A model generated the notes under the pieces. That model was not told where the DNA came from and searched no databases. It was given only the letters and a program-made list of their open reading frames with translations. Positions 359 through 6,737 of a stretch of DNA of 64,000 nt are shown piece by piece. Origin of the DNA: a secondary endosymbiont of Heteropsylla cubana (lineage in GTDB: Bacteria > Pseudomonadota > Gammaproteobacteria > Enterobacterales > Enterobacteriaceae). The first letter of the stretch is position 1, and every line of letters begins with the position of its first letter. The DNA lies in NCBI RefSeq assembly GCF_000287355.1, contig NC_018420.1, positions 868,001 through 932,000 on the forward strand. Reading direction: 5' to 3'. Both the position numbers and the translations under genes were made by a program.

Positions 359-1129
359 TTTTTAGGCATGTCTTTTTAAAACGTATAGTCCATATCGTAT
401 TTTAATGCTTTATATGCACGTATTAATGAGTGATTTTCTAATACAAGTAATATCAATGAGAAAATTAGACATCACACTAACCATTATGATATCTAAATAC
501 TACTTTGAATGTAAAAAAATTCAAAAGCAGTTCCTTTTTTATTCACTAGTAATGAACTAAACTAAATTAACTTATAAATTCCATTTGATTGATAATCAGG
601 GCATACATTTTATGCTAAATATATTTAAAAGAAAATATGTTGCATTATAGCGAACAAAAATCGTGACAGGAATATTCTTGAAATAGTGTTTAATAATACA
701 AATCAGCATATCGTGTAATTAGTTATATTTTAAGATAACTATATCTTTTTAAACTATTTTTTTTATATTCACTAATAGAATAAAACTATTATATTTTTCT
801 TTAAAAGAAAAAGGTATTTAATTCTAAATAAAACTTTAATTTTTTTAAATAATATTTTTTATTTAATATTTTACCAACATCTTAGAATTGACATAATACT
901 AGTAAAATTAAAAAGATAACATGATGGAGAATTAGCAATAACATGCAATATTAATACAAAGTAATTAACGTTTTATTTATACAAATAAAACTATATTGTT
1001 TTAAATAAAAGTAAAGCGTTATATAAGATACTTATATAAACAAATACTACTGCAATAGTAGTGGTATTTGTTTTTACTTTATAGTATATTTTTTTAAATA
1101 TTTAAAAGTAGTTTAGCGGGCGACATCAT
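359..1129. other. Gene-free AT-rich spacer
   Basis: I see no gene in this stretch, and no readable trace of ligA, which follows zipA in E. coli. The only structure I can point to is a hairpin at 1041-1075, listed separately. Confidence 0.6.
1041..1075 (+). terminator. Hairpin followed by a T-run upstream of suhB
   Basis: CAAATAC and GTATTTG form complementary ends around an imperfect inner stem (TACT/AGTA), and five T follow directly. This has the shape of a weak Rho-independent terminator on the plus strand. No intact gene lies directly before it, so it could be left over from a lost gene or could lie in the suhB leader. Confidence 0.35.
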
Positions 1130-1912
1130 ATGCATCCGATGCTCAACATTGCTATTCGCGCTGCGCGAAAAGCAGGAAAATTAATTTCACAATACTATGA
1201 AACACCTTCTATCTACGAAAACAAAACCAACTTTATTTCCACTTTCTGTCGGGAACTAGAACGATTAATTATTGAAGTTATTCGACGATTTTATCCACAA
1301 CATAGCGTTTATGCCGAAAAAAGTGGAGAACTAATAGGAAAGAACAATGATGTAAAATGGATTATTAATCCATTAGATAGTTCTACGAATTTTATTAAAC
1401 GTTTTCCTCATTTTTCTGTATCTATTGGCATATTAGTGAAAAGCTGCATGACAGTTGCAGTCATATATGATCCGATGCGCAATGAACTGTTTACTGCATC
1501 TCGAGGTCAAGGAGCACAATTAAACGGTTATCGTTTGCGTGGGGGCACAGAACGTGGTATAGAGAGCACTGTATTAGGCACTACTTTCTTGTTTAATACG
1601 CAAGAAAATTCTAGTAATTATATTTCCATAATAAGCAAGTTATTTCTAAAATGTAAAGCGTTTCGTTGCACAGGTTCACCATTGTTAGATTTAGCCTATG
1701 TCGCCGCAGGTCGTTTAGATGGATTTTTTGACATTGCTTTAAAACCATGCAGCTTTCTTAGCGGAGAACTTATAGTACGTGAAGCTGGAGGGTGGGTTAC
1801 CGATTTTATCGGTAGCCATAATTATTCTGTATCTGGGAACATCATAGCTGCTAATCCTAAATTATTGAAAGTAATAGTATCTACTATACGTAATGAATTG
1901 AAAAATTTTTAA
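1130..1912 (+). CDS. suhB: SuhB, inositol-monophosphatase-family protein with degraded active site
   Basis: SuhB of E. coli is an inositol monophosphatase and also part of the NusA/NusB/NusG antitermination complex on rRNA operons. The 260 aa product follows E. coli SuhB from MHPMLNIA through YDPMRNELFTASRGQGAQLNGYRLRG to the end (E. coli 267 aa). The metal site is broken. Motif 1, normally IDPLDGTTNF, reads INPLDSSTNF, so the first Asp is Asn80. The Trp-Asp of motif 2 is Cys207-Ser208. The Asp of the VTNVD segment is replaced by Cys40. Glu63 and Asp83 remain. The frame is open to the normal end, so this is not an ordinary pseudogene. I infer that phosphatase activity is lost or very low and that selection acts on the transcription role. 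No strong ribosome binding site is visible, but the start matches E. coli. Confidence 0.92.
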   Translation: MHPMLNIAIRAARKAGKLISQYYETPSIYENKTNFISTFCRELERLIIEVIRRFYPQHSVYAEKSGELIGKNNDVKWIINPLDSSTNFIKRFPHFSVSIGILVKSCMTVAVIYDPMRNELFTASRGQGAQLNGYRLRGGTERGIESTVLGTTFLFNTQENSSNYISIISKLFLKCKAFRCTGSPLLDLAYVAAGRLDGFFDIALKPCSFLSGELIVREAGGWVTDFIGSHNYSVSGNIIAANPKLLKVIVSTIRNELKNF

Positions 1913-3708: not shown

Positions 3709-4135
3709 TTTGTGTAATCTTAATTAAAAAGGGGTATTTCCGGGTTATAATATTCTAATACTATGAAATATTTTTTATGTTCGCAATGAATGTTTCCCTA
3801 AGATCTAGCCCCAAGTGTTTTTTTAATGACATGTGAGAAAAAATGTAAGGTTATGGACCTAATTAACATAAAAGTTTTGTATTTTTAGGTTAAATGAAAT
3901 TATTGATTTTAATACGACTCAAAATTTTAAAACTTTTTATAAAGTTTAATCTTAAGTGCAATAAATTAATTTATTTATGTGTATGAAGGAGAAAAAATCT
4001 AGATAATAATAAATATTATTAAATATTGATGGTTTACCTTTTTAGAAATTTAATAATGTGGATGTAGATTAATTTTATTAATTATATAGTTATGTTAGAA
4101 ATTTTGAATTTATAAAAAGATTTTTTAAAAAAATC
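3709..4135. other. Spacer between ybhL and tRNA-Pro
   Basis: AT-rich sequence in which I see no gene. The genes on either side converge on it. Confidence 0.5.
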
Positions 4136-4212
4136 TGGTCGGCATGAGAGGATTCGAACCTCTGACCCCCGCCACCCCATGACGGTACGCTACCAGTCTG
4201 CGCTACATGCCG
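4136..4212 (-). tRNA. proL: tRNA-Pro, anticodon GGG
   Basis: On the minus strand a full 77-base cloverleaf is visible. The acceptor arms are CGGCATG and CATGCCG, the D-arm reads GTAGCGCAGACTGGTAGCG, and the anticodon stem CCGTC/GGCGG closes the loop ATGGGGT. The T-arm is AGAGGTTCGAATCCTCT, followed by discriminator A and an encoded CCA. The loop gives anticodon GGG, as in E. coli proL, which reads CCC and CCU. It is the only tRNA I found in the window. Confidence 0.95.
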
Positions 4213-6737
4213 AAAAGCATACTATTTTAGTATAAATTAAAAAATATTTTGATGAGCTATATTACTTGTAATCTTTCATTAAAGCGAGATTTTTATAAAA
4301 ATTTTATACTGAAATATCAGTTATTAACCTCTAACTTTATAGAGTTAAACGTCAACTTTCATAAAAACGATGAACTTCTTGTTGTAATTCAACTGAATAG
4401 TTCAATAAACCTATTTTTTATTAACGCAATAAAACTTTTATTATTATGTTAATAGTATAATTAAATGACAAACATGAAAAAAGTATTTAGAAAGTAATAT
4501 TATTATCAGAATACAAAATTTCTTTTTCTATATTATTATTCTTAACCGTGAATAAAAATTTTTATATTTTTGTCTTATCTAATAAGATTAGATTTATAAA
4601 AATACAGATTTAGAATATTATTCTAATTTAAGATTTTTAGATGATTAATCTATAAATGTTTTTTTATTATATCGGTATTCAAAAATAAAATCTTCTGCAA
4701 TAAACAGATATGTTTAAATATTTTTCAAAAATTAAGATTATACATTAATTTTGGTAAATTATTTTTTCTAAAATTTTATAGAAAATTTTTTATGAATGTT
4801 TATTTATTTAAAATACAGCATTTTTTAAAAAATATTTTTTTATTTAGTTTATATGTTTCTTCTCTCATGTTAATTTCGAATTATTAAAATTAAAAACGAG
4901 AAAAAATTTAAAAATAAGTTATGTAACTATGAATGTTAATTGCATTAAATAAATTTATTAAATGATTTTGGAACGATTATCTATTTTATATAATAAAATT
5001 AGAAAAAATATTTAAAATGATGCTATATTTATATCAATATAAGTTATTTTAATTTTAATTTTTAAAATTATTTAAACGATTATTAGAAATTAAGTAATAG
5101 GAATTGAATAATGTAGAAAAGATAGTTTAAATTGCCCTAAAAAAATACCAACGCTCATTAAGCGAGAAATAGCATTTCATGCTTTCAAGAATTTATGTTT
5201 ACAGCTTCTCAAAAAAAAATAAATAAAAAGCAATATAATCAAGTATCTTATAAATAAGATTTGCACATTATATAGATTTAGCTAATAAAAAACTTTTTTA
5301 TTAGTCTATATTCTAGTCCGTAGACTAATTTTTTAATTCTACCTCACTAAAAATATTAAACAGTCATTTTAACATACTGACAGGAAGTAACTTTTTATTT
5401 AAAAAATATTGTTTAAAAAACAAGAGCGAGAATTTTTCCTTCTCACTAAAATAGTGAAGCATAAAAATTATTAGTTTATTGATTGGTAATAAATACATCT
5501 TTAGTACGTATATAACGAAGACATGAAGAACAAAATTTTCATTTTATTCGATGAATATTTTTTCACCCATCCAAAAAAAATAGACAAAGAATGCTAATAA
5601 TAAATAGGCAATAAAATGTTTTACAAGATATTCGAGGTTGATAATGTATTAAGTTCAATAGATATGATCATTACTCGGCAATATTGATATGAGATAAAAT
5701 CTTTTTTAAGGTATATAAAATTGATTTACAGTAATAATGGATTAATTTGCTTTATACATATTGCGTTTTGAAAAAACACGAATGTTTTTAAAACCTGTCA
5801 AAGACCAACAAACCATAATTCGTCAAAGGTTAAAATACGTTATAAAGAGTCTTTTTAGCGGTAATGATATCACGAGTTTACCTCTAAACTTGTCATATGA
5901 TTTATTGTTCCAAAGTAAATAGTTAAAATCGTTATCGCGTATTTTTTTGAATAGTTTAGCTTATCTGATAACTTTATCCAACTCTTAAAGACTTACCTTA
6001 ATGTTAAGTAGTTCGGTAGTAAACTAATCTTTTCTGTTTAGCTACCTATACTAGAATAAAAAAACTAGAAACAACTGATGTGTAATTATAAAAATAATAT
6101 TATTAATGATTATTAAGATTACATTAGTAGTATTTTTAAATTAACTTTAGATCTATAATTGGTAGATCAGAAAAACCAGGTTATTGGTTCTAATAGAAAA
6201 GAGCTGTTATTAGATAAAATTTTTATCTCTGATCCATTATAAGAAAAGAATAAAACCATATTATATAATATGGAATCTATTTTTTTTCTTGAGTTGGTTT
6301 TTCTGCCCCTTTTGATAGGCTTATAGAATAAAGATATTTTATCCTGATCTTATAGAGATCTTAATTCAAAAAAATATAGTTACTAGAATTTATCCTTATT
6401 GTCTCCAAAAAAATTAATCCATTAGTATATTGTAGCATAATAACTACATCTTTTGGTTAAAAAGGCTTGTTTATTCATATATAAATTACATTTATCATTC
6501 GATAATATCAACTAGTTTTTTACAATAAAAAAACCTCTAAAAGAAGCAAATAAATTGTATAGAAATTAAAATATTTTAATATTAATTAAATAAAAATGTT
6601 TATTTTTTTTAAGTAATACGGACCAATCCATCTATTGATAGATGTGACACATAAATCACATTTATATAAACAATGAAATTATACACAAATATTAAAATTA
6701 AATATTTAATTATTATCTTTCAGTTAGGAGAAAGAAC
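4213..6737. other. 2.5 kb gene-free spacer upstream of gmhB
   Basis: There is no supportable gene. Open frames such as 4249-4452 are AT-driven and match nothing I know. In E. coli the metN-metI-metQ block lies divergently beside gmhB and is about this long. One minus-strand segment (about 6290-6326) can be read as SLSKGAEK, faintly like an ABC-transporter LSGGQK signature, but this is too weak to call a remnant. Confidence 0.45.

Follow-up and report, generated by a model that had tools for sequence, protein, structure and literature searches.

In Escherichia coli, SuhB belongs to the rRNA antitermination complex as one of its subunits, and is needed there for NusB and S10 to enter stably and for Rho to be delayed (PMC6614801). 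The initial annotation noted that this role in rRNA transcription does not need phosphatase activity, and both PMC4807359 and PMC6614801 state that the activity is dispensable for the role of E. coli SuhB in growth; of the cellular roles of SuhB in gammaproteobacteria, that in the Nus complex is the best described (PMC4807359, PMC6614801). Because E. coli keeps both functions, the reason for conservation of the phosphatase site of SuhB, and any contribution of that site to ribosome production, have hitherto been unclear. The window analyzed here, a stretch of 64,000 nucleotides with a GC content of 0.30, lies in a single-contig genome of 1,121,596 bases from the secondary endosymbiont of Heteropsylla cubana, for which a genome of 1122 kb and 28.9% GC has been published (PMC4285135, PMC10434271). 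Judged from its sequence, the SuhB encoded in the window is very likely to be a dead inositol phosphatase, kept for its work as a Nus factor in the synthesis of rRNA.

The suhB gene and its altered active site

The open reading frame at 1130-1912 on the forward strand runs from an ATG start to a TAA stop without interruption and encodes a product of 260 amino acids, in agreement with the full-length frame described in the initial annotation. The product matches PF00459 in a profile search (E=1.9e-52), is 57% identical to E. coli SuhB over its full length, and has E. coli SuhB (2qfl/6ib7) as its closest solved structures in a sequence search. It groups with the SuhB proteins of free-living enterobacteria in a tree, and its gene is the single match to a SuhB query in the genome; it is a full-length orthologue nearest to E. 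coli SuhB and present in one copy. An AF2 model built from eighteen input sequences has a pLDDT of 90.8 and a pTM of 0.91 (a four-sequence version with a pLDDT of 54 was discarded). The best structural match of the model is E. coli SuhB (Z 39.8, rmsd 1.4 A), with Z 39-40 and rmsd 1.4-1.6 A against the E. coli SuhB structures overall, Z 39.4 and rmsd 1.4 A against the SuhB copies in the rrn antitermination complex (6tqn), and Z 33-35 against human IMPases. Between zipA, which ends at 358, and suhB, which starts at 1130, a 16-bp hairpin followed by a T-rich stretch (1038-1073, forward strand) resembles a terminator. Elsewhere in the window, about 3 kb of low GC content (3709-6737) contain one tRNA gene (4139-4212, reverse strand) and no open reading frame of 80 amino acids or more, and are probably decayed genes.

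The four side-chain metal ligands of SuhB are E67, D84, D87 and D212, the residues that bind metal or substrate being well established for the IMPase family; numbering is that of E. coli SuhB, the reference having been verified against the K-12 sequence. The features of the gene are as follows, the residues being assigned by alignment to E. coli SuhB:

1130..1912, forward strand: suhB, 260 codons plus TAA, encoding a catalytically degraded protein of the inositol-monophosphatase fold (open reading frame, PF00459 and structure matches)
1247..1249, forward strand: Cys40 (TGT), replacing the active-site Asp44 of the VTNVD motif
1316..1321, forward strand: Glu63 (ligand E67 retained), then Lys64 replacing E68
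1367..1369, forward strand: Asn80 (AAT), replacing the metal ligand Asp84
1376..1384, forward strand: Asp83 (ligand D87 retained), then Ser84-Ser85 replacing G88-T89
1667..1669, forward strand: Cys180, replacing Arg184 in the core of the SuhB dimer
1748..1753, forward strand: Cys207-Ser208, replacing W211-D212, of which D212 is a metal ligand
1868..1879, forward strand: Lys247 (K251 retained) to Val250 (L254V), the NusA AR2 contacts in E. coli (PMC6614801)

Thus the active site of the protein is dismantled by substitution, with the reading frame and the predicted fold retained. Two of the four metal ligands are lost (D84N, D212S) and two are retained (E67, D87), and D44C, E68K, G88S, T89S and W211C are further changes in the active site; the protein has the profile and fold of an IMPase but not the complete set of four side-chain metal ligands of an active one. 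The three sites named in the initial annotation (Asn80, Cys207-Ser208 and Cys40) align to D84, W211-D212 and D44 and were correctly read, but Lys64, Ser84-Ser85 and Cys180 had been overlooked. Of the positions that are invariant in large-genome relatives, the protein retains 2/9 catalytic positions versus 93/135 others (Fisher p=0.0075), so the catalytic loss is beyond chance. D212S and D44C require two nucleotide changes each, and therefore are not single AT-biased transitions. Changes of the D84 and D212 type inactivate IMPases, and the searched literature yielded no paper on the effects of such mutations on activity. The window's SuhB would be unable to bind the catalytic metals properly and would be without phosphatase activity.

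Loss of metal ligands in reduced genomes

The initial annotation treated the lesion as peculiar to one genome, which proved mistaken: ligand loss is nearly universal and recurrent among reduced-genome symbionts. Of 392 genomes surveyed in this GTDB family, 375 encode SuhB (E<=1e-30), and the sequences read were those of 90 genomes of at most 2.4 Mb, from 53 genera, and of 53 larger genomes. The reduced-genome relatives are presumably insect symbionts, to judge from their family, size and composition. Among the genomes of at most 2.4 Mb, 87/90 lack one or more of the ligands, as do 77/77 of those of at most 1.2 Mb, and 52/53 larger genomes retain all four. The reduced genomes retain none (21), one (43), two (19), three (4) or all four (3) of the ligands, an exchange of Asp for Glu or the reverse that could save the site occurs in none of the 90, and the frames are full length in all 90 (249-294 amino acids). 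Replacements of D84 vary by lineage (N, Y, H, T, S, I, E and others) and are mostly Asn. In the dimer core, 82% of the sampled symbiont genera with ligand loss have another residue in place of R184, and 92% retain its neighbour R183. Some R184 mutants of E. coli reportedly fail to complement; as the residue is replaced in the window and in most ligand-lost genera, the dimer interface may have changed. The sole exception among the 53 larger genomes (L202 of G092, 3.3 Mb) retains one of four ligands. In another genome of 3.1 Mb (G170), counted apart from the 53, stop codons interrupt the suhB frame (L257), and ligands are lost as well.

Losses were counted on a tree from which the active-site columns and the more diverged sequences were left out. 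Seven changes between kept and lost sites are needed on this tree (bootstrap 6-8; at least 3 are forced by strongly supported branches), so that the family has seen no fewer than about seven separate losses. Genus g72 comprises a 3.6 Mb member with an intact site, which is one of the larger genomes of the count above, and three reduced members, each with a lesion of its own (D84Y; E67K+D84N; E67K+D87N+D212N). Ligands are also lost in several other families (G056, G587, G666, G674, G696, G556/G764 and G438). Small genome size alone was considered as the cause and rejected, because most non-enterobacterial gammaproteobacterial genomes of 0.9-2.0 Mb retain all four ligands. The SuhB of one 1.0 Mb genome of another family (L221 of G587) has D212N as its single lesion, apparently a very recent independent loss, and two other sampled congeners are ligand-intact.

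Selection on SuhB and retention of its partners

A ratio of dN/dS near 1 over the whole gene had been named in advance as evidence against the proposed separation of functions. The dS of the window's suhB relative to free-living relatives is saturated by the NG86 method (pN 0.22, pS 0.80) and the window's genus consists of one genome, which places the recent dN/dS of this lineage beyond computation, and pairs of congeners among other symbionts took its place. In all 50 such pairs from reduced-genome genera, dN/dS of SuhB is between 0.12 and 0.57. Of 144 positions that are invariant in large-genome relatives, mean retention is 0.32 for 9 catalytic positions versus 0.64 for 135 others (Mann-Whitney p=4e-4), a difference of the same direction in 50/50 genera. 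The rate of difference within genera is 0.42 in catalytic columns, 0.41 in variable columns and 26% in other formerly invariant columns, and that of catalytic columns among large genomes is 0.000. Thus constraint in the relatives was lost in the active-site columns alone, and SuhB combines lost catalytic residues with a retained frame and fold and with purifying selection elsewhere, which is measured in relatives and extends to the window's lineage indirectly. The indirect evidence for that lineage is the low pN relative to the saturated pS (0.22 versus 0.80), together with GC contents of 0.43, 0.40 and 0.25 at the three codon positions of the window's suhB versus 0.20-0.21 in its flanking spacers.

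These results bear on two other explanations of the substitutions. General decay, in which relaxed selection and AT-biased mutation are turning suhB into a pseudogene and the lesions at the active site are incidental to this, would suit the AT-rich genome, the replacement of D84 mostly by Asn (a single G-to-A step) and the broken suhB frame of the 3.1 Mb genome G170, but it is highly improbable given the full-length frames and low dN/dS of the reduced genomes. Moreover, invariant Asp and Glu residues outside the catalytic set are retained at 0.48-1.00 (except D38 and E205) versus 0.14-0.56 for the catalytic residues, and two of the window's lesions need two base changes each. CysQ, a paralogous phosphatase of PF00459, retains all of its ligands in the 20/20 reduced genomes checked, with a within-genus dN/dS (0.15-0.51) similar to that of SuhB; as the same mutation bias and fold leave the CysQ ligands intact, AT bias or general decay does not explain the pattern in SuhB. 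It is scarcely credible that SuhB has kept catalytic activity, whether through a changed metal site or on a different substrate: E67 and D87 persist in the window's protein and its fold is intact, but the replacements of D84 differ between lineages and form no new conserved pattern, 21 of the 90 reduced genomes are devoid of all four ligands, and an Asp/Glu exchange rescues the site in none. The catalytic columns drift within genera, whereas a new catalytic site should be conserved.

What the presumably dead phosphatase is retained for can be approached through its partners. The window's genome retains Rho, NusB and a 502-amino-acid NusA frame with both C-terminal acidic repeats, and has one rrn operon, in the leader of which boxA (TGCTCTTTAATAA) has one mismatch and boxC (TGTGTGGGCACT) is exact; the distance of 27 nt from the start of boxA to the start of boxC is identical to that of E. 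coli rrnB. All the Nus components looked for (NusA with AR repeats, NusB, Rho and an rrn boxA) are thus present. In a comparison of 60 genomes, NusB is absent or disrupted in 3/6 of those without SuhB versus at most 1/54 of those with it (p=0.0006-0.002). A 1.2 Mb relative (G118) is without SuhB and NusB and retains both NusA acidic repeats and Rho; its gene L146 encodes a CysQ-like protein of the PF00459 type with all ligands present. In papers on Buchnera, suhB is among the genes lost in some lineages or is unconnected to the biomass reaction, which agrees with a Nus-only role. A pseudophosphatase kept for a role other than antitermination, for example a function with RNA polymerase, as a chaperone or at the level of mRNA, is unlikely in view of the retained NusB and Rho, the boxA and boxC of the window's genome, the association of SuhB absence with NusB absence, and the standing of the Nus complex as the best-described role of SuhB (PMC4807359, PMC6614801); in its favor are the wide replacement of R184 and the acidic repeats of NusA, which are reduced or missing in 9/52 reduced genomes that retain SuhB. 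No match to the C-terminal acidic repeat was found in the NusA of four SuhB-retaining genomes (G076, G115, G146 and G286). The persistence of SuhB in several symbionts whose NusA is devoid of acidic repeats means that the AR2 contact alone does not explain why SuhB is retained. Co-variation of K251/L254 with the AR repeats of NusA (35/43 versus 3/9, p=0.0076) is given no weight, since SuhB is also most diverged in the genomes without repeats (0.33 versus 0.52 in mean identity to the E. coli protein). The NusB and AR2 correlations are partly confounded with overall genome decay. As correlations, the retained partners, boxA and the NusB association point to retention of the presumably inactive SuhB for its Nus role.

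A probable Nus factor stripped of its enzyme

The proposed mechanism is that genome reduction strips away an unneeded enzyme function of SuhB and leaves its Nus-factor function. A complex of RNA polymerase, NusA, NusB, NusE/S10, NusG and S4, with the SuhB dimer as its hub, would assemble on boxA of the rrn leader, keep Rho off the untranslated rRNA and aid the folding of rRNA. SuhB is probably retained because its dimer is the structural hub of this complex, for which there is published support in E. coli. The suggestion in the initial annotation that reductive evolution separated the moonlighting role from the enzyme is supported by the dN/dS of relatives, the loss of constraint in the active site, the retained partners and boxA, and the SuhB of symbionts may be, as that annotation put it, a pure transcription factor. 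Comparison of the sequences makes it likely that host restriction in gammaproteobacteria leads generally and repeatably to loss of the SuhB phosphatase site: the enzyme half would have been discarded on many independent occasions, the transcription half would be selected like a working enzyme, and dozens of symbiont genera would have a SuhB that is obligately a Nus factor and no longer an enzyme. No prior report of this pattern of ligand loss was found in the literature searched, which was mostly that outside subscription journals.

Dozens of symbiont lineages thus constitute a natural separation experiment, in which the gene survives without the active site, and their SuhB proteins offer structural biologists and geneticists natural separation-of-function variants. 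The pattern suggests that rRNA antitermination is under selection even in very small genomes. The annotation of symbiont suhB as inositol monophosphatase in metabolic models is wrong by sequence.

Among known systems, the fungal inactive Dis3/RNase II pseudonucleases resemble symbiont SuhB in the reported repeated loss of catalytic residues and the keeping of a non-catalytic, RNA-related role (PMC8097288); they differ in that the window's genome has no duplicate of suhB, the sole copy found being the degraded one, and in that the setting of SuhB is genome reduction under host restriction. CysQ, the 3'(2'),5'-bisphosphate nucleotidase, shares the PF00459 fold and is found in many of the same symbiont genomes, but with its complete catalytic ligands it is an enzyme by sequence. 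E. coli SuhB (2qfl, 6ib7, 6ib8, 6tqn) is the orthologue, alike in sequence, predicted fold, K251, and the Nus partners and boxA/boxC of the genome. It differs in having D84, D212, D44, E68, G88, T89, W211 and R184, none of which is present in the window's SuhB, and in being an active phosphatase in vitro, though its cellular role is independent of that activity. Overall, the SuhB of the window is best regarded as a moonlighting enzyme in a form that has been inactivated in nature, and repeatedly so.
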